Source: Charina bottae (taxonomy: Eukaryota > Chordata > Lepidosauria > Squamata > Charinaidae). Taken from it: a DNA stretch of 64,000 nt. The notes under the pieces were generated by a model. It was not told where the DNA came from and did no database searches. It was given only the letters and a program-made list of their open reading frames with translations. Made by a program: the position numbers and the translations under genes. Location: the NCBI GenBank assembly GCA_023362775.1, contig JALMGJ010000001.1:91452501-91516500 (forward strand), given 5' to 3'. Shown here piece by piece: positions 3,104-59,333 of the stretch. Position 1 is the stretch's first letter. Each line of letters opens with the position of its first letter.

Positions 3104-3664
3104 GAGCCAGTTTGTTCTAGTGGTTAAAGTGCTGGGCTAGAAACCAGGATACTGAGAGTTCTAGTCCCGCCTTAGGCATGAAAGCCGGCTTGGTGACCTT
3201 GGGCCAATCCCTGTCTCTCAGCCCTAGGAAGGAGACAATGGCAAACCAGGATACTGAGAGTTCTAGTCCCGCCTTAGGCATGAAAGCCGGCTTGGTGACC
3301 TTGGGCCAATCCCTGTCTCTCAGCCCTAGGAAGGAGACAATGGCAAACCAGGATACTGAGAGTTCTAGTCCCGCCTTAGGCATGAAAGCCGGATGGGTGA
3401 CCTTGGGCCAGTCCCCCTCTCTCAGCCCAACTCACCTCACATGGTTGTTGTTGTGGGGAAAATAGGAGGAGGAAGGAGTACTAGGTATGTTCGCCCCCTT
3501 GAGTTATTTATAAAAATAATAAAGGCGGGATATAAAAAAATAAAATAAATAAATAAAATAAAATAAAATAAAATAAAATAAAATAATAAAACAACAAAAC
3601 AAAACAAAACAAAACAAAACAAAACAAAACAAAACAAAACAACAAAACAAAACAAAACAAAACA
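3104..3664 (+). mobile_element. tRNA-derived SINE (family with 'GAGCCAGTTTG' head), internally triplicated
   Basis: It starts with GAGCCAGTTTGTTCTAGTGG (A-box-like) and contains the B-box-like GTTCTAGTCCCGCC. It then has a central 'GACCTTGGGCCA' domain and a tail 'GTTATTTATAAAAATAATAAAGGCGGG' type sequence (here 3503-3531). An (AAATA)n then (AAAAC)n array follows at 3536-3664. The central part occurs three times in tandem with a 102-bp period (starts at 3141, 3243, 3345). Confidence 0.8.
3141..3446 (+). repeat. 102-bp tandem triplication inside a SINE
   Basis: AAACCAGG recurs at 3141, 3243 and 3345; the first two units are almost identical. The junction motif is AAACCA, which occurs in the SINE both in 'GAAACCAGG' (head side) and in 'GCAAACCACTT' (distal side, visible in the single-unit copy at 6150-6388). 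Microhomology-driven duplication is therefore likely. Because 102 is divisible by 3, long spurious ORFs result. Confidence 0.85.
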
Positions 3665-13739: not shown

Positions 13740-15115
13740 CAGGGCTTTGCAAAGTTTTCCCGCGGCAACACACCAACCGCCGTTGGTGTGTCGCCGCGGG
13801 AAAACCCGGAAGTGCCGCCGTTGCAGCAGCGCGCAAAACCCCAGAAGCGCTGCTGCCGCTTTCAATTTTTGCACGCCGCCATTGGTGTGTTGCCACGGGA
13901 AAACCCGGAAGTGCCGCCATTGCGGCAGCGCGCAAAAACCCGGAGGCGCTGCTGCCGCTTTCGGTTTTTGCGCGCCGCCGTTGGTGTGTCGCCGCGGGAA
14001 AACCCGGAACTGCCGCCATTGCAGCAGCGCGCAAAACCCCAGAAGCGCTGCTGCCGCTTTCAATTTTTGCACGCCGCCATTGGTGTGTTGCCACGGGAAA
14101 ACCCGGAAGTGCCGCCATTGCGGCAGCGCGCAAAAACCCGGAGGCGCTGCTGCCGCTTTCGGTTTTTGCGCGCCGCCGTTGGTGTGTCGCCGCGGGAAAA
14201 CCCGGAAGTGCCGCCATTGCAGCAGCGCGCAAAACCCCAGAAGCGCTGCTGCCGCTTTCAATTTTTGCACGCCGCCATTGGTGTGTTGCCACGGGAAAAC
14301 CCGGAAGTGCCGCCATTGCGGCAGCGCGCAAAAACCCGGAAGCGCTGCTGCCACTTTCAGTTTTTGCGCGCCGCCATGGCTGCGGTGCTTTCGGATTTTC
14401 GCACGCTGCCGTTGGTGTGTCGCCACGGGAAAACCCGGAAGTGCCGCCGTTGAAGCAGCGCGCAAAACCCCAGAAGCGCTGCTGCCGCTTTCAATTTTTG
14501 CACGCCGCCATTGGTGTGTTGCCACGGGAAAACCCGGAAGTGCCGCCATTGCGGCAGCGCGCAAAAACCCGGAGGCGCTGCTGCCGCTTTCGGTTTTTGC
14601 GCGCCGCTGTTGGTGTGTCGCCGCGGGAAAACCCGGAAGTGCCGCCATTGCAGCAGCGCGCAAAACCCCAGAAGCGCTGCTGCCGCTTTCAATTTTTGCA
14701 CGCCGCCATTGGTGTGTTGCCACGGGAAAACCCGGAAGTGCCGCCATTGCGGCAGCGCGCAAAAACCCGGAAGCGCTGCTGCCACTTTCAGTTTTTGCGC
14801 GCCGCCATGGCTGCGGTGCTTTCGGATTTTCGCACGCTGCCGTTGGTGTGTCGCCACGGGAAAACCCGGAAGTGCCGCCGTTGAAGCAGCGCGCAAAACC
14901 CCAGAAGCGCTGCTGCCGCTTTCAATTTTTGCACGCCGCCATTGGTGTGTTGCCACGGGAAAACCCGGAAGTGCCGCCATTGCGGCAGCGCGCAAAAACC
15001 CGGAAGCGCTGCTGCCACTTTCAGTTTTTGCGCGCCGCCATGGCTGCGGTGCTTTCGGATTTTCGCACGCTGCCGTTGGTGTGTCGCCACGGGAAAACCC
15101 GGAAGCGCTTGCCAT
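13740..15115 (-). mobile_element. hAT-type element expanded into a 99-bp GC-rich satellite (one end lost)
   Basis: The left end CAGGGCTTTGCAAAGTTTTC is the same terminus as the right ends of the elements at 55204-55530 and 61965-62235. It is followed by a strong hairpin (CCGCGGCAACACACCAAC with GTTGGTGTGTCGCCGCGG). The rest is a tandem array of 99-bp monomers in two alternating types (A and B, 198-bp dimer) plus a 35-bp insert variant containing CCGCCATGGCTGCGG. That variant recurs at 14371, 14802 and 15035 (spacings 431 = 4x99+35 and 233 = 2x99+35). The opposite terminus is absent; a Penelope-type fragment abuts at about 15116. The abundant intact CpGs suggest recent expansion. The ORFs of up to 507 codons here result from the period being a multiple of 3. 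Confidence 0.8.
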
Positions 15116-26395: not shown

Positions 26396-26832
26396 ACAAA
26401 CCAATCAGCAAAAGACCATAGATAACCTAGAGGGAGAAACCCTACATTCTTATAATTGAATCATATCCTCAAAGAGCTAGCCACCTGTCCACTCATCCTA
26501 GCCCAAGGGTCGGAAATGGCGGCTCGCGAGCCAGATGCAGCTCTTTGGCCCCTTGAGTGTGGCTCTTCCGCAGCTGAACTCACCCACGCCCCTTCCACGC
26601 GGTTGGATCCCGCCCTCAAACTCTGATGGCCGGCGCTGGAGGTGGGCGATTGATTCTTCCTCCTCCCGCCCTCGGGAGCCTTCCAACTTTCGCCAGAGTC
26701 GGGCAGCGCTTCTTCGAGGTCGGCGGGTGGGGAAGTTGGTTGGTCGCCGCCGCCTCTTCCTCCGCCCGCGTTGCAACGGCCGCCGCCGCCGCCCCCCCGA
26801 AGCGCTCGCCAGGCAGGCAGGAGAGCGTCGCC

Positions 26833-27183
26833 ATGCTGGGCGCGCTGCGAGAGGAGACAGCGCAGCTGCTGGGCGACTACCTGCAGCACCGGCTGGGGGA
26901 CGCGGCGCTGCCCCCCAGCCGCACGGCCGAGACGCTGCGGCGGGTGGCCGACGAGCTGGAGAGCCGCAAGCGCATCTTCTTCCGCAACGCCTGCAGCGCA
27001 GCGGCCTTACCGGAGCCGGGCGAGGCGGCCGCCTTGCTGGGCCGGGTGGCGACGCAGATGGAACCCGAGGGCGGCCTCAATTGGGGCCGGGTGGTGGCGC
27101 TGGTCATGTTCGCCGGGTTTTCTTTATTTTCGAAAAGGAACGCGAACACCTCAGGGAAGCATTTGGATCGACGTGTGTTTTAA
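26833..27183 (+). pseudogene. BCL2L10: Captured BCL2L10 (NR-13/Diva-like) exon fragment
   Basis: The ATG at 26833 is in a good context (GTCGCCATGC). The product starts 'MLGALREETAQLLGDYLQHR' (BH4-like helix). It continues with 'ETLRRVADELESRKRIFF' (BH3-like region, about residues 34-51) and 'GGLNWGRVVALVMFAG' (BH1, ending near residue 95). This order and wording match avian NR-13/BCL2L10 better than BOK, BCL2 or MCL1. Similarity stops right after the BH1 'FAG'; the next 21 codons up to TAA are unrelated. BH2 and the C-terminal membrane anchor are missing. No stop or frameshift occurs in the captured part, which implies recent capture or constraint. About 200 bp upstream of the ATG are also GC-rich and may be captured 5'UTR/promoter; the same frame is open from 26626. 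The native gene is not in this window. Function is unknown: a truncated BH4/BH3/BH1 protein or antisense/siRNA source is possible but not shown. Confidence 0.8.
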
Positions 27184-27250
27184 ATTGTTTCCCCCCCCCC
27201 GAGAAATCCCGGTGGTGTCCTCGCGAGCCAATCGCGTGGAAGGCGCGCGG

Positions 27251-27411
27251 GCGGAGCTGCCTGCCTGGCACTCGGGCGCTCCGGCTGGGGTGCAGCGGGA
27301 CGGGAGCTCCACCCGCGCGCCTTCCCTGGCCGGTCCTCGCGGGCCGCCGGCGATGCTCCCGTCCCGCTGCAACCCAGCCGGAGCGCCTGAGTGCCAGGCA
27401 GGCAGCTCCGC
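27251..27411. repeat. 57-bp inverted repeat (hairpin) in the hAT-like element
   Basis: Arms 27251-27307 and 27355-27411 are complementary with two mismatches, around a 47-bp loop. The GC-rich arms (CTGCCTGCCTGGCACTCGGG) would form a very stable stem in RNA. Confidence 0.9.
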
Positions 27412-27488
27412 CTGCACAGTTGTGGCAGCGGGCATGGCGGCGGCGGGCACTGCAGCGGGCATGGCGGCAGCAGGCCCTAAGTGTCCGC

Positions 27489-27640
27489 GATTGGCTCCCA
27501 CCCGCAAACCCCGCCCCCTTCCACGCAATTGGCCCCTGCCTGCAAACCCTGCCCCCTTCCACGCGATTGGCCCCTGCCCGCAAACCCCGCCCCCTTCTAC
27601 ACGATTGGCCCCCGCCCGCAAACCCCGCCCCCTGGCTCTT
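27489..27640 (+). repeat. 38-bp tandem repeat, four copies
   Basis: GATTGGC/AATTGGC starts recur at 27489, 27527, 27565 and 27603. Each unit contains a CCGCAAACCCCGCCCCC-type GC-box-like sequence and an ATTGG (reverse CCAAT) motif. Confidence 0.9.
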
Positions 27641-27829
27641 GAGCATGTCAAAATGCCCTGGAGCATGTCAAAATGGCTCCTGGCATAAAAAAGTTTGCCG
27701 AGCCCTGTCCTAGCCCATAGTCTGGGGAAAGGGCCAGATCTAAAGGCTTGTCTAAAAAGAGTGCTGGTTGGGGACTATGCAGATTTTGAGGAGACGCTAT
27801 TCCAGTGGGCAAGCATCATTATTGAACAG

Positions 27830-28118: not shown

Positions 28119-28389
28119 TAAGAGGTTACCAGCGCCGAGAGCTTCGGCTGGTTGCGCTGGTGGCCTACGACTGCCCAGGAGGATTGAGAATGAAAGGATG
28201 GATGTATGGAAGAGACCCCTGCCTAGATCCAGGTTTTCGAGGGATTCGGGAGTGGAGGCGACCGGATCAGGAAACTCTGGGGACTATAATGAGGGCAATC
28301 CGATCGAGGTGGTGACGGGCAGGAGATACTGTGTTGGGAACTAGAGGACAGGCCATCTTCAGGGAAGGCGCCCCCGGTGTTTAGTACCG

Positions 28390-31200
28390 GTGGCGCGTTC
28401 CAGTCCTCCGAGTTCAACCCCAGGTTCTGGACAGCGGATCCTTGAGGGCCCCGGCTTTCGACTGCTGCTACTCAACACCAGGTCAGTAAACAACAAAGCC
28501 CCTCTCATAAGTGAATTAATCACGGAGAGAGGGGCTGACCTGGCATGTATTACCAAAACCTGGCTGGGCCCAGAGGGAGGGGTAGCCCTCTCGGAGATGT
28601 GCCCAGCCAGGTTTCAGGTGTGGCACCAGCCGAGAGACCGGGGTAGGGGAGGAGGGGTGGCAGTTATCATCAGAGAGTCTTTGGTGGCTTTCAGGGGCCT
28701 TGCTCCACAAGTATCCGGATGTGAGACCCTGTTTTTCAAGTTGGGTGCCCGAGAACAGTTGGGAGTGTTGCTATTGTACCAGCCTCGGGACCCGACTCGA
28801 GACAGTGGACTCACTCCGGATTTGGTTTCTTGTCAGAGCAATGGCAAAGTGACCTGAGGGGAAAGTTAGAACTATCCCCGTTGTCATGGTCAGATCACGT
28901 CCTGATATCCCTAGGATTCTCTTATGCCGCCCCACTCCGCACGGAGGCAGGACCTATTTGATTGGTCCGCCCCCGGCGACTTATGGGCCCATTGAGGTTT
29001 CAGAGGGAGCTGGGGGTAATACTCGAGGATCTGCTGCATGGTCCACCGGAGGCACTGGCCGCAGCCTGGAATAGGGAGGTGGTCGGTGCCTTGGACAGGA
29101 TTGCGCCAATGCGACCTCTCCAGCCCCATTCGACCTGTCACTCCCCGTTGTTTACGGAGGAGTTGAGGGTCTTGAAGACGGTGAAGAGACGTCTAGAGCG
29201 CCGCTGGAGAAAGATGAGGACCGAATTCGACCGAACACAATCTAGAGCAATGTATTGTCGAAGGCTTTCACGGCCGGAGTTCAAAACCACAACTTCCAGA
29301 ACACGGCCACACAGCCCGGAAGACCCACAACAGCCACAATCTAGAGCGCTATTAAGGCCTACCTTGTGGCAGTAAGAGCGGCAAAACGTGAATATTTCTC
29401 CGCCCTTATGGCGTCCGCAGAATGCCGTCCAACGGCCCTGTTTAAGATTACTCGATCTCTCTTAGGTAGGGTGGTATTGACCACCCACCTGCAGGGCCGT
29501 GCGGAAGAATTTTCTGAGCATCTGCAGGATAAAATCGCTCGGATTCGGTCTAAGTTGGACTCCATGCGTGGAATGCAGCCTGGGGAGATGCCGGGAGAGT
29601 GATCTTGCCCTATTATCTGGGAACGATTTGATCCTGTTGGACCTAAGGAAGTGGACAGGATCCTTCAAATTGTTAATTCCACCACATGTTATTTAGATCC
29701 CTGCCCTTCCTGGCTGGTTAAATCGGCCAGGGAGGTGACAGGTGGATGGGTCCAGGCTATGATTAATCCTTGTTGGAGGGGGTGGTTCCAACTGCCTTCA
29801 AGGAGGCATTGGTGCACCCCCTCCTCAAGAAGCCATCCCTGGACCCTACCATCTTGGACAACTTTCGTCCAGTCTCCCACCTTCCCTTTTTGGGAAAGGT
29901 GGTTGAGAAAGTGGTGGTGTTGCAACTTCAAAGGACCCTGGATGAAGCAGATTATCTAGACCCTTTCCAGTCAGGTTTCAGGCCGGGACATGGGACGGAG
30001 ACTGCATTGGTTGCGCTTACGGATGATCTCTGGCGGGAGTGGGATGGAGGTAGTGCATCCATCCGGGCTCTCTTGGACCTCTCAGCGGCTTTCAATACCA
30101 TCGACCATGGTATCCTTTTGGGGCGACTCAGGGAGTTGGGGGTGGGCGGCGTAGTTTTGCGCTGGTTCACCTCCTTCCTCCGGGGCCGCTCCCAGTCGGT
30201 GGTGATAGGGGAGGAGAGATCCAGCCCACGACAGCTCCTGTGTGGGGTGCCGCAGGGCTTGGTTCTCTCTCCTCTCCTATTCAACATCTACATGAAACCG
30301 CTGGGCGAGGTCATCCGTCACCATGGGATGAGGTATCATCAGTATGCGGATGATACTCAATTGTATATATCCATCCCTGGTGAGGTAAATGATGCAGTGT
30401 CCACCCTGTCCCAGTGCCTGGGGGCTGTGAGGGCCTGGATGGGGAACAATAGGCTTCAATTGAACCCTGGTAAGACCGAGTGGCTGTGGGTTGATGGCTT
30501 AGCGTCTTCTGGGAAATTATCATCTTTGGTTCTCAATGGGGTAGCACTGCCCCGTTCAGAACCGGTGCGTAATCTGGGGGTCCTTCTAGACTCATGACTC
30601 CTGCTTGAAGAGCAGGTGGCAGTCGTAGCTAGGAGGGCTTTTGCACAACTTCGGTTAGTGCGCCAGTTACGCCCATTCCGGGATCGCGACGCCCTCCGTA
30701 CAGTCACTCATGCTCTCATCATCTCCCATGTAGATTACTGCAATGCACTCTACATGGGGCTACCCTTGAAGACTATCTGGAAGCTACAACTGGTGCAGAA
30801 TGCGGCCACGCGGGCAGTTTTGGGTGCGTCAAGATCTGCACATGTAACACCGTTGCTCTGCGAGCTGCATTGGGTGCCGGTTTGCTTCCGGGTACAATTC
30901 AAGGTGTTGGTTATCACCTTTAAAGCCCTACATGGCATGGGGCCAGAATACCTGAGGGACCGTCTTATCCCTATGTTATCGACCCGCCCCACCTGATCAT
31001 TCATAGAGGGCCTGCTACGAACCCCATCAATTAGAGAATGCCATCTGATGGGGTCTAGGAGGCGGACCTTCTCTGTGGTAGCGCCCACTCTATGGAACAT
31101 CTTGCCCCCGGAGCTGAGACAGATCTCCCTCCCGACCTTTAGGAAAGAGCTGAAGACCTGGTTCTGCCACCTGGCATGGGAAGGAGGAAGGGATAGTTCC
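28390..31200 (+). pseudogene. L2 LINE ORF2 (endonuclease-reverse transcriptase), broken
   Basis: The endonuclease segment shows 'LLLLNTRSVNNKAPLI', 'LACITKTWLGPEGG' and 'RGGGVAVIIRE'. It breaks near 28857, before the part that should carry the catalytic GDFN block, so a deletion or frameshift removed it. The RT segment shows 'DNFRPVSHLPFLGKVVEK', 'LLDLSAAFNTIDH', 'GVPQGLVLSPLLFNIYM' and 'YADDTQLYIS', the intact catalytic core. A TGA near 30595 and another near 30996 interrupt the C-terminal domain ('CNALYMGLPLKTIWKLQLVQ', 'LCELHWVPV'). No active protein is expected. Confidence 0.85.
29249..29334 (+). mobile_element. 86-bp Penelope-type composite insertion in L2
   Basis: It is flanked by a 13-bp duplication CACAATCTAGAGC (29236-29248 and 29335-29347). 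It joins two pieces: 'TATTGTCGAAGGCTTTCACGG', and 'AACCACAACTTCCAGAACACG' through 'GACCCACAACAGC'. The second piece is shared with 15199-15250. It lacks the hammerhead part. Confidence 0.7.
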
Positions 31201-41627: not shown

Positions 41628-44600
41628 CCCCTTCATGGATCACTGCCTTGTCGTGGCGAAGGGGCTTGCGTAACTCAATGAAGTCAGGTCAAGACAGACA
41701 GGTCATGATGGAGAGTTCTGACAAAACGTGGTCCACTGGAGGAGGGAATGGCAAACCACTCCAGTATCCTTGCCAAGAAAACCCATGGACAGTATCAAAA
41801 GGCTAAAAGATATGACGCCGGAAGATGAGCCCCTCAGGTCGGAAGGTGTCCAATATGCTACTGGGGAAGAGCGGAGGGCAATTCCGAGTAGCTCCAGAAA
41901 GAGTGAAGCAGCTGGGCCAAACCCGAAAGGACGCTCAGTTGTGGATGTGTCTGGAAGTGGAAGGAAAGTCCGATGCTGTAAAGAACAATACTGCATAGGA
42001 ACCTGGAATGTAAGATCTATGAATCAAGGTAAGCTGGATGTGGTCAAACATGAGATGACAAGATTGAACATCGACATCTTGGGAATCAGCGAACTAAAAT
42101 GGACAGGAATGGGCAAATTTAATTCAGGAGACCATTATATATACTACTGTGGGCAAGAATCCCTTAGAAGAAATGGAGTAGCTCTCATAGTCAATAAAAG
42201 AGTGGGAAAGGCAGTACTGGGGTACAACCTCAAAAATGACAGAATGCTTTCAGTTCGAATCCAAGGCAAACCATTCAACATCACAGTAATCCAAGTCTAT
42301 GCCCCAACCACTGATGCCGAAGAAGCTGAAGTTGACCGGTTCTATGAAGACCTACAACACCTTCTAGAACTAACACCAAAAAAAGATGTGCTTTTCATCA
42401 TAGGGGACTGGAATGCTAAGGTAGGAAGTCAAAAAATAACAGGAATAACAGGCAAGTTTGGCCTCGGAATACAAAATGAAGCAGGGCAAAGGCTAATAGA
42501 GTTTTGTCAAGAGAACACGCTGGTCATAGCAAACACTCTTTTCCAACAACACAAGAGACAACTCTACACATGGACATCACCAGATGGTCAATACCGAAAT
42601 CAGATTGATTATATACTTTGCAGCCAAAGATGGAGAAGCTCTATACAATCAGCAAAAACAAGACCTGGAGCTGACTGTGGCTCAGATCATGAGCTTCTTA
42701 TCGCAAAATTTAGGCTTAAATTGAAGAACGTAGGGAAAACCACTAGACCACTCAGGTATGACCTAAATCATATCCCTTATGAATATACAGTGGAGGTGAG
42801 GAATAGATTTAAAGGATTAGATCTGGTAGACAGAGTGCCTGAAGAACTATGGATGGAGGTTCGTAACATTGTACAGGAGGCAGCAACTAAAACCATCCCA
42901 AAGAAAAAGAAATGCAAGAAAGCAAAGTGGCTGACTGATGAAGCTTTACAAATAGCTGAGGAAAGAAGGGAAGCAAAAGGCAAGGGCGAAAGGGAAAGAT
43001 ATAACCAACTGAATGCAGATTTCCAGAGAATAGCACGGAGAGATAAGAAGGCCTTCTTAAATGAACAATGCAAAGAAATCCAGGAAAACAATAGAATAGG
43101 GAAGACTAGAGATCTCTTCAAGAAAATCGGAGATATCAAGGGAACGTTTTGTGCAAAGATGGGCATAATAAAGGACAAAAAAGGCAGGGACCTAACAGAA
43201 GCAGAAGAGATTAAGAAGAGGTGGCAAGAATACACAGAAGAACTATACAAGAAAGATCTTAATATCCCTGAGAAATACAATGGCGTGGTCACTGACCTTG
43301 AGCCGGACATCCTAGAGAGTGAAGTCAAGTGGGCCCAGCTGAGCTATTTAAAATCCTAAAAGATGATGCTGTTAAAGTGCTGCACTCAATATGCCAACAA
43401 ATTTGGAAAACTCAACAATGGCCACAGGATTGGAAAGGGTCAGTTTACGTTCCAATTCCAAAGAAGGGCAATGCCAAAGAATGTTCAAACTACCGTACAA
43501 TTGTGCTCATTTCACATGCTAGCAAGGTTATGCTCAAAATCCTACAAGCTAGGCTTCAGCAGCATGTGAACTGAGAACTACCAGAAGTGCAAGCTGGGTT
43601 TCGAAGAGGCAGAGGAACTAGAGATCAGATTGCCAACATTCACTGGATCATGGGAAAAGCAAGAGAGTTCCAGAAAAACATCTACTTCTGCTTCATTGAC
43701 TACGCTAAAGCCTTTGGTTGTGTGGATCACAACAAACTGTGGCAAATTCTTAAAGAGATGGGAGTACCAGACCACCTTACCTGTCTCCTGAGAAACCTGT
43801 ATGCGGGTCAAGAAGCAACAGTTAGAACCGGTCATGGAACAACCGACTGGTTCAAAATTGGGAAAGGAGTACGACAAGGCTGTATATTATCACCCTGCTT
43901 ATTTAACTTATATGCAGAGTACATCATGAGAAATGCCGGGCTGAATGAATCACAAGCCGGAGTTAAGATTGCTGGGAGAAATATCAACAACCTCAGATAT
44001 GCAGACGATACCACCCTAATGGCAGAAAGTGAAGAGGAACTAAGGAGCCTCTTGATGAGGGTGAAAGAGGAGAGTGCAAAAGCTGGCTTGAAACTCAACA
44101 TTAAAAAAACTCAGATCATGGCATCTGGTCCCATCACTTCCTGGCAAATAGAAGGGGAAGAAATGGAAGCAGTGACAGATTTTATTTTCTTGGGCTCCAA
44201 GATCACCGCAGACGGTGACTGCAGCCATGAAATTAAAAGACGCTTGCTCCTTGGGAGGAAAGCTATGGCAAACCTAGACAGCATATTAAAAAGCAGAGAC
44301 ATCACCTTGCTGACAAAGGTCCATATAGTTAAAGCTATGGTTTTTCCAGTAGTAATGTATGGCTGTGAGAGTTGGACCATAAGGAAGGCTGAGCGCCGAA
44401 GAATTGATGCTTTCGAGCTGTGGTGCTGGAGAAGACTCTTAAGAGTCCCTTGGACTGCAAAGAGGTCAAATCAGTCAATCCTAAAGGAAATCAACCCTGA
44501 CTGCTCATTGGAAGGACAGATACTGAAGCTGAAGCTTAAATACTTTGGCCACCTAATGCAAAGAGAGGACTCACTGGAAAAGACCCTGATGCTGGGAAAG

Positions 44601-44786
44601 ACTGAAGGCAAAAGGAGAAGGGGACGGCAGAGGATGAGATGGTTAGATAACATCACCGATGTAACAAACATGAATTTGAGTAAACTCCGGGAGACAGTGG
44701 AGGACAGGAAGGCCTGGCGTGCTATGGTCCATGAGGTCACGAAGAGTCGGACACGACTAAATGACTGAACAACAACAACAACAAAC
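41628..44786 (+). mobile_element. BovB (RTE-clade) LINE, nearly full length
   Basis: A TGCATCCA duplication flanks it (41620-41627 and 44787-44794). The element starts CCCCTTCATGGATCACTGCC and ends in (ACA)n. It encodes an apurinic-type endonuclease and RT in one reading region with few lesions. Both halves and the 3' end match the recalled BovB family closely. BovB is known to have moved horizontally among squamates, ruminants and others, probably via ectoparasites. This copy is the likely type of driver for the Sauria SINEs. Confidence 0.95.
41728..44768 (+). pseudogene. BovB ORF (endonuclease + reverse transcriptase), two lesions
   Basis: The first open part (to 43359) has 'CIGTWNVRSMNQGKLDVVKH', 'VIQVYAPTTDAEEAEV', 'FIIGDWNAKVG' (catalytic) and 'DCGSDHELLIAKF', so the endonuclease looks intact. 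Around 43329 a small deletion shifts the frame: the residues normally linking 'EVKWA' to 'PAELFKILKDD' are missing. RT continues in the new frame until an in-frame TGA at 43572-43574 (context AACTGAGAACTACC; CGA to TGA by CpG decay is likely). It then runs open to 44768, including 'FIDYAKAFGCVDH', 'GVRQGCILSPCLFNLYAEY' and 'NLRYADDTTLMA' (catalytic). Only these two defects prevent a full protein. Confidence 0.9.
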
Positions 44787-48849: not shown

Positions 48850-49913
<1,064 letters not shown>

Positions 49914-50565
49914 TGATCCAGAATAGGGACTGGACGCCCCTGTTCTCAGATAGGTCACTACTTTTGGGGGGGGCGGCAGAGGGGTTATACCCGGCTGTCT
50001 TCTAGCTTTCTCCCAGCTGGCTTACTACCGTCCCATCCACCCAGCACAGCGCAGCACAGCCGCTCTTTTGCTGCCTGGGTGGGATGGGCGTTGTAGTCCT
50101 AGAGTCCGCCGCCTGTGAATAGTTTTCTCTAGGTCGCTCTGAAGCGCCTGACTATATCTCCTCCCGCGCTCTACCCCGGTTTCCTCCCGTCGCTTTGAGG
50201 CTTTTCCCTCGGGGAGGAACACTCGGGGAGGCGTCCCGGTCCCCAGCGGTGCCTGGGCATCTCGGGGGCTGCCCTTGTCCCCTTCAAGTCCAGCCGCTGC
50301 CGCGAATGGCCTTGGGGCTCTTTTCCTCTCCTGGAGGCTCCCCAGCCTGGCTGTGGAAGAGCGTGTGCTTGTGTGAAGCCCGCAGTGCATGCTAAAGCAG
50401 GAGGAACAATGGAGACAAAAGGTTTTCCTCTGAAAGCAGAGCCTTTCTCTCTTCTTTCCCCCCACCCCGAATTTGTTTAACCCGAGAGCTGCGCGCTGTA
50501 TCTGAAGGCGTGATGTGGGTTCCCAATCGTGCTGTCTGTATAATCTCTTGTAGCAGCTGCCAATT

Positions 50566-58770: not shown

Positions 58771-59333
58771 ATGTTTTTATTATTTATTTATTTATTTTCT
58801 ATCCCGCATTTATTATTTTTATAAATAACTCAAGGTGGGGAACATACCTATTACTCCTTCCTCCTCCTCTTTTCCCCACAGCAACCCTGTGAGGTGAGTT
58901 GGGCTGAGAGAGAGTGACTGGCCCAAGGTCACCCGGCTGGCTTTCATATTTCATCTGGGCATAGGCTTTGGTGTTCCATCTTGTCACTGAGTTCACTGCT
59001 GCCTTGCAAGTCAATGGCTCTGTGCTGTTGCAAAAGGCTAATAGCAAAGAAATGCTATTTCATGCCCAAGGTGGGACTAGAACTGTCAGTCTCCTGGTTT
59101 GCCATTGGCTCCTTCCTAGGGCTGAGAGACAGGGACTGGCCCAAGGTCACCCAGCCGGCTTTCATGCCTAAGGCGGGACTAGAACTCTCAGTCTCCTGGT
59201 TTCCTATTGGTTCCTTCCCAGGGCTGAGAGTGAGTGACTGGCCCAAGGTCACCCAGCCGGCTTTCATGCCTAAGGCGGGACTAGAACTCTCAGTCTCCTG
59301 GTTTCTAGTCCATTGCCTTAACCATTAGACTAA
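58771..59333 (-). mobile_element. tRNA-derived SINE with 102-bp tandem units, minus strand
   Basis: Reversed tail at 58771-58850 ('TATTATTTTTATAAATAACTC'), then reversed central parts. CATGCC marks recur at 59061, 59163 and 59265, exactly 102 bp apart, as in the copy at 3141-3446. The head ends near 59333. A non-SINE stretch at about 58945-59050 sits between tail and repeats. Confidence 0.82.

Follow-up and report, generated by a model that had tools for sequence, protein, structure and literature searches.

In plants, cut-and-paste transposons routinely capture genes, and in bats gene fragments have been captured and moved within a vertebrate by Helitrons, which are rolling-circle elements. 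The Pack-TYPE transposons, described as a plant group by Gisby and Catoni (2022, PMC8903248), include hAT elements, and their largest clusters in maize, with over one hundred elements, belong to hAT and PIF. In animals, a survey of 100 genomes reported 370 Pack-TIRs, of which 208 were hAT elements; nearly all were single-copy and were argued to have arisen mostly without transposition (Tan et al. 2021, PMC8277862). As far as the consulted part of that survey goes, four of them were multicopy in reference genomes, three in frogs and one in alligator, with three insertions in the worked example and five copies in another frog case, and one was multicopy in fly populations. In the fungus Pseudocercospora fijiensis, a hAT element captured histone H3 and raised its copy number into the hundreds (Dhillon et al. 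2019, PMC6710886). Among the open-licence papers listed in our literature searches, no title or start of an abstract describes a BCL2L10-carrying hAT family.

The window analysed here is a 64 kb stretch of the genome of the snake Charina bottae (G000:C1:91452501-91516500), and it contains a short element with part of the apoptosis gene BCL2L10 between hAT-like ends (Table 1). We conclude, with a probability of roughly 0.93, that a non-autonomous hAT element took in a piece of the host BCL2L10 gene and was amplified to well over a hundred places, its interior being remade on the way. This reading builds on directly observed ends, target-site duplications (TSDs), empty sites in repeats, a native source gene, nested cargo types and neutral decay of the copies.

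Table 1. Layout of the BCL2L10-carrying hAT element and its target-site duplications, in window positions.
Feature	Position	Strand	Details
Target-site duplication, left	26496..26503	.	TCCTAGCC, nnnTAnnn type
Left end block of hAT element	26504..26621	+	Terminal CAAGGGTCGG, subterminal repeat; present in 41 tiled copies
Block X, GC-rich, non-BCL2L10	26622..26734	+	113 bp; without significant similarity to the native gene +-1500 bp
Captured BCL2L10 piece	26735..27116	+	About 100 bp upstream of ATG plus codons 1-95; 96.1% to native over 384 bp
Open frame, 116 codons	26833..27183	+	First 95 codons BCL2L10, last 21 filler Y
Filler block Y	27117..27248	+	In place of remaining exon 1 in type-B copies
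Fold-back	27247..27415	.	Arms 27247-27317 and 27345-27415, 90% complementary
Subterminal tandem repeat, 38-bp unit, 3.9 copies	27486..27633	+	
Right end of hAT element	27634..27707	+	..GTTTGCCGAGCCCTG
Target-site duplication, right	27708..27715	.	TCCTAGCC

The element covers 1204 bp (26504-27707), begins with CAAGGGTCGG and finishes with CCGAGCCCTG, directly inside both copies of TCCTAGCC. These two copies are the sole plus-strand occurrences of TCCTAGCC in the 64 kb window and none is found on its minus strand, which bears out the perfect 8-bp duplication that an earlier, sequence-only reading had placed around the element. The end bases, CAAGGGTCGG and, reversed, CAGGGCTCGG, are inverted-complementary at 8 of 10 positions. 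Among 13105 exact 8-mer pairs spaced 200-5000 bp apart in the window, 10 had inner ends that match at 8 or more of 10 positions, the element's own pair included; taken alone, the duplication and the ends in the window are weak evidence and not beyond chance. The status of the element as a transposon, likewise proposed from the window, is instead established by the family, since both ends were recovered in 41 of the 45 copies of a first set and a perfect 8-bp TSD in 33 of these 41 (one mismatch in 5; none at the boundaries set in L006, L012 and L025). The termini CAAGGGTCGG and CAGGGGTCGG were present in most of 28 family copies compared.

The hAT superfamily has short terminal inverted repeats (TIRs) of 5-27 bp, and the TSD consensus of its Buster group is nnnTAnnn (PMC3517528). 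Both an 8-bp TSD and short TIRs were found here, and nnnTAnnn was present in 34 of the 38 TSDs with at most one mismatch. From these features the element is best classed as a probable non-autonomous hAT, Buster-like by target site only. Helitrons have neither TSDs nor TIRs and are ruled out by the presence of both in this family, which separates the snake element, with its TIRs and 8-bp TSDs, from the rolling-circle elements of bats. No transposase was recognised inside the element; filler Y was considered as a remnant of a hAT transposase and rejected, with no solved-structure match up to E 10 and a single protein candidate that failed to score. The left-end sequence was found neither in viral contigs nor as literal text in papers, and the window contained no Rfam families. 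Other features of the window are a GC-rich tandem array with periods of 99, 134 and 233 bp (13777-15105), a 102-bp tandem unit at 3141-3428 and 59058-59305, apparently the same in opposite orientation as judged by consensus units, and a CpG-rich exon (49131-49916) with a Pfam Ion_trans_2 match just below the cut-off, the frame of which we take to resemble the start of a TASK-type K2P potassium channel.

The frame that starts at the ATG at 26833 was assigned to the Bcl-2 family (PF00452, E 7.2e-11), and the closest solved structure is a BCL2-like 10 chain (6fbx, E 7.8e-11). Proteins matching at E<=0.001 numbered 28 among 326 candidates, and all 28 align with the cargo as BCL2L10-type; 26 are named BCL2L10, NR13-like or Bcl-2 by at least one source, and P0015 and P0020 are without such a name. 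Squamate BCL2L10 proteins ranked at the top with identities of up to 92% over query residues 1-95, and in a tree of the 95 cargo residues the cargo was placed within a snake branch of 13 rows (support 93/89). These 95 codons presumably encode BH4, BH3 and BH1, and the final 21 codons of the open frame, to the TAA at 27181-27183, are filler without relation to BCL2L10. In the gecko Heteronotia binoei, the "NR13-like" proteins P0025 and P0028 are full-length and divergent, with 56-57% identity to the cargo; P0025 represents 8 sequences on 5 contigs, and these proteins are perhaps a separate BCL2L10 expansion.

The native BCL2L10 gene is intact and located on another contig, C2, with exon 1 at G000:C2:16698232-16698639 and exon 2 at C2:16690429-16690557, both on the minus strand and without stop codons. 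The frame of exon 1 runs to ...EAHGGW, followed by GTAAGC, at about codon 135, and the exon extends to native bp 507 (counted from the first captured base); this boundary agrees with the snake database proteins P0003 and P0011, both of which apparently read on into the intron. The BCL2L10 proteins of this genome and of Candoia aspera share 97% identity over residues 1-136. A comparison of the window element with the native gene +-1500 bp on the plus strand yielded one match, element 232-613 to native 1401-1784 with 96.1% identity, which extends from 100 bp before the ATG to native bp 384 (codon 95), inside exon 1; no BCL2L10 sequence was found by this comparison in block X or after 27116. A longer cargo is present in copy L030 (native bp 1-483, to codon 128). 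BH2, the membrane tail and the full two-exon gene are absent from the element, which holds part of exon 1 only. The sequence-only reading was thus right in the gene, and not in taking the cargo for an entire exon: the cargo stops inside exon 1, and its homology covers 26735-27116 rather than the proposed 26630-27183. A captured promoter, also suggested, is unsupported, the homology appearing to reach no further than about 100 bp before the ATG.

As in a Pack-TIR, host sequence is located between TIR ends and a parental copy exists elsewhere in the genome, here the BCL2L10 gene on C2. The parental copy is apparently not flanked by the same transposon: the native gene +-1500 bp matched the element on the plus strand in the cargo only (E<=0.001), and the best match of the left 240 bp of the element to the same region, on both strands, had an E-value of 0.15.

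To the 1.80-Gb assembly of 278 contigs, the whole element gave at least 107 matching stretches from the 40 first-look candidates that were scored out of 5044. The Candoia protein matched all 150 scored of 787 candidates; two of these are the native exons and at least 148 are located elsewhere, with identities of 62-92%, on 28 contigs by hand count, none of them C2. These matches need not correspond to 148 elements because two of them adjoin in opposite orientation on C212. We read 57 distinct copies, the remainder of the 148 being counted as copies from the match alone: a first set of 45 (L001-L040, L052 and L071-L074, the other loci of L042-L070 repeating earlier places) and a second set of 12 (L075-L086) from the lower part of the protein match list. 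All 57 contained the same BCL2L10 piece, and neither a cargo-free copy nor an autonomous partner was seen among them. From these matches, the genome seems to carry BCL2L10 pieces at well over a hundred loci. The amplification considered from the window alone is thereby borne out, and two findings that were to have counted against the capture, a lack of other copies and a native gene at this very position, did not materialise.

For the 33 copies with a perfect TSD, we joined the flanks with one TSD and searched for empty sites, which are here other copies of the same repeat and not the orthologous site. Matches across the joined flanks were obtained for 9 of the 33 copies. The empty site of L023 was found with 97.5% identity over 240 bp in the BovB-type LINE of the window and with 97.9% in L002 (240/240 bp), that of L027 with 97.5%, that of L030 with 96.4% over 197 bp in L018, and that of L039 in many copies of one repeat with up to 93.8%; the matches for L018, L020, L029, L032 and L038 were weaker or shorter. 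In the second set, both ends were within the fetched stretch in 4 of 12 copies, and a perfect TSD was present in 3 of these 4 and lacking at the boundaries set in L078. The LINE of the window (41722-44768) has two long frames of 545 and 397 codons with endonuclease and reverse transcriptase, and is presumably a BovB (RTE) element; two hAT family members have an empty version of their target site in it. Close to the hAT element lies another type of LINE, in which a reverse transcriptase domain was found (28345-30996).

The 45 copies were sorted by the last native base of the cargo into types A (about bp 483, n=6), B (384, n=28), C (356, n=3), D (283, n=4) and E (231, n=4), the window copy being one of type B; in the second set the cargo ended at native bp 231 in 12 of 12 copies. 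Since the five nested 3' breakpoints are followed by differing fillers, the interior was rebuilt after what was apparently a single capture. The 3' joints were identical to the base in the compared copies of types B (4), D (4) and E (3), two of four compared type-A copies had a joint that could not be placed to the base, and the type-C copies L028 and L029 shared the breakpoint and had different fillers. As estimated by BLAST, the first native base was 1 in 35 of 45 and 10 of 12 copies (45/57); in the remaining 12 it was 11-17, 63 or 90, and we ascribe these later starts to local gaps, divergence or deletion. At the 5' joint, for which two copies (L001, L030) were compared with the native sequence upstream of base 1, element and native gene share GTTGG/TTGG, which is compatible with microhomology.

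Tiling of the copies into blocks identified the left end, block X, the cargo and the right end as common parts, with variable material in between. The 41 tiled copies have block X ahead of the cargo, interrupted by other blocks in L036. The cargo is followed by block Wa in type A and by Y and the fold-back in type B. Larger inserts are K, about 750 bp and GC-rich, in the type-B copies L013 (2463-3217), L019 and L052 and, in a distant version (about 80-87%), in the type-E copy L074; M, in L026 (2219-3273) and in part in L036, both type B; N, in the L029/L032 pair; and P, in all four type-D copies (L040:1790-3034). In L040, insert P has within it an open frame of 227 codons (P0029), for which neither a Pfam family nor a protein at E<=0.001 was found among 1230 candidates, a set without proteins of very different length; an attempt to name the host gene of P from this frame therefore failed. 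Inserts K, M, N and P may be further host captures. It is conceivable, at somewhat less than even odds, that each of the blocks X, Wa, Y, K, M, N and P, with lengths from 116 bp to 1.2 kb, derives from a different place in the host genome, in many cases a CpG-rich gene start, and that the lineage has repeatedly rebuilt itself from host DNA, spreading multi-gene mosaics around a BCL2L10 core by the hundred.

A C>G change from the native gene at base 81 is the commonest base in every type (A 6/6, B 27/28, C 3/3, D 4/4, E 4/4), 337A>G and 349C>T are common to types A, B and C, 168G>A is commonest in B, C, D and E, and 105C>T and 127G>A are common to B and E. The pattern fits one capture, with type A likely nearest to the native gene; part of what the types have in common may instead stem from changes in the native gene. 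In a tree of the 231 shared bases, the type-D copies grouped together (94/85), and a core of 30 rows (99/95) contained 25 B, three E, one C and one A copy; three more B, one E and other A and C copies were placed outside it. Because types A, B, C and E did not form single clades, the origin or exchange of certain 3' breakpoints may have happened more than once. The mean non-CpG divergence from the type consensus, which is biased low in small sets, was 2.2% in type A (n=5), 1.0% in B (26), 0.5% in D (4) and 0.9% in E (3), and the divergence at CpG sites was 4-8%. The window copy had low CpG decay (2.0% of CpG sites compared with a type-B mean of 7.9%) and an ordinary non-CpG divergence (1.3% compared with 1.0%). 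If about 1e-9 changes per site are assumed to accumulate each year, the spread of type B would date back around ten million years; a literature search for a neutral substitution rate in snakes found no paper.

Could the copies be segmental duplicates, or ordinary BCL2L10 pseudogenes that lie near repeats by chance? The pairs L029/L032 and L031/L033, which have TSD and flanks in common, do look like segmental duplicates, but the 34 different TSD sequences among 38 copies and the empty sites refute this for the family, and with both hAT ends in 41 of 45 copies we consider the explanation scarcely credible. The only other flank matches >250 bp are that of L023/L027 and one of L002/L021 in a stretch distant from the insertion; the flanks of L023 and L027 are 97-98% similar because both copies were inserted into the same kind of LINE, and their TSDs differ. 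Shared TSDs in L003/L005 and L014/L023 were discarded as signs of segmental duplication since the flanks do not match. That related elements took up this BCL2L10 region several times independently is suggested by the five different 3' ends and by the types that are not monophyletic on the 231 bases, yet block X and the 5' joint are the same in one copy each of types A, C, D and E, and in B with a listing offset of 4 bases, and the changes shared between types, above all that at base 81, argue further for a common origin, which makes repeated capture very unlikely. Entry from mRNA or cDNA rather than genomic DNA is a less improbable, though still unlikely, variant: the cargo, clearly to bp 483, remains within exon 1, and since what was retained lies inside this exon no intron could reveal a DNA origin. 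Exon 2 was covered by one of the 150 scored protein matches, the native one, and the consulted part of the animal survey attributes Pack-TIRs to gap filling or template switching (PMC8277862); both point weakly to genomic DNA.

It might also be supposed that the captured frame is under selection and provides BH3/BH4 peptides or a decoy RNA, as 34 of 45 copies retain the ATG and a frame open to the breakpoint. However, codon positions 1 and 2 were not spared at non-CpG sites, where the frequencies of changes from the type consensus were 0.0148, 0.0118 and 0.0117 at positions 1, 2 and 3 (0.061, 0.080 and 0.080 at CpG sites), and stops caused by substitutions were found in 8 of 45 copies against 6.9 expected from 500 runs of a neutral simulation (P(<=8)=0.79). 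There is hence no sign that the fragment was kept for a function, and we regard selection on the frame as very unlikely. CpG transitions account for 231 of the 359 coding changes, and the number of CpGs in the first 231 bp is 37 in the native gene, 28.6 on average in the 45 copies and 33 in the window copy. These data are read most simply as methylated DNA decaying neutrally, with DNA methylation as the probable cause of the CpG losses.

In the history that we favour, capture of a BCL2L10 piece followed by amplification of the chimera, a hAT element would, probably once, have taken up about 483 bp of BCL2L10 between its terminal blocks; this piece begins 100 bp before the ATG and ends at codon 128, within exon 1. 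Template switching may have been the step, or else gap repair, either within the element or beside it. The chimera would have kept both ends and been mobilised, presumably in trans by a hAT transposase, and during the spread the 3' part of the cargo would have been trimmed to native bp 384, 356, 283 or 231, with mostly GC-rich filler substituted for it.

The closest likeness is to animal Pack-TIRs such as Pack-hAT-N8_XT of the western clawed frog, which share hAT ends, the 5' part of a host gene, a parental copy elsewhere and distinct TSDs for each copy, whereas at least 148 matches, five nested cargo lengths and a changing filler set the snake family apart (PMC8277862). The view that such captures are rarely shown in vertebrates holds for multicopy cases, with only the four mentioned above in the consulted part of that survey, and not for the class as a whole, given the share of hAT among its animal Pack-TIRs (PMC8277862). 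As with the hAT of P. fijiensis, one host gene was amplified, the copies decay and the original is intact; the fungal H3 copies were inactivated by RIP, whereas the snake copies reside in a vertebrate, show CpG-type decay and have a rebuilt interior (PMC6710886). The plant Pack-TYPE elements are likewise non-autonomous TIR elements that shuffle coding DNA, the host being different (PMC8903248). The capture read from the window stands, corrected in extent and strengthened to a high-copy Pack-hAT family in a snake.

The number of copies is far above the few copies per family in the consulted part of the animal Pack-TIR survey (PMC8277862). With an intact parent gene, sub-types and nested breakpoints, the family is a natural experiment in which the order of events can be followed and the capture joints compared. 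The presence of many CpG-decayed copies with the sequence of an apoptosis gene makes it a testable question whether BCL2L10 may be silenced in trans.
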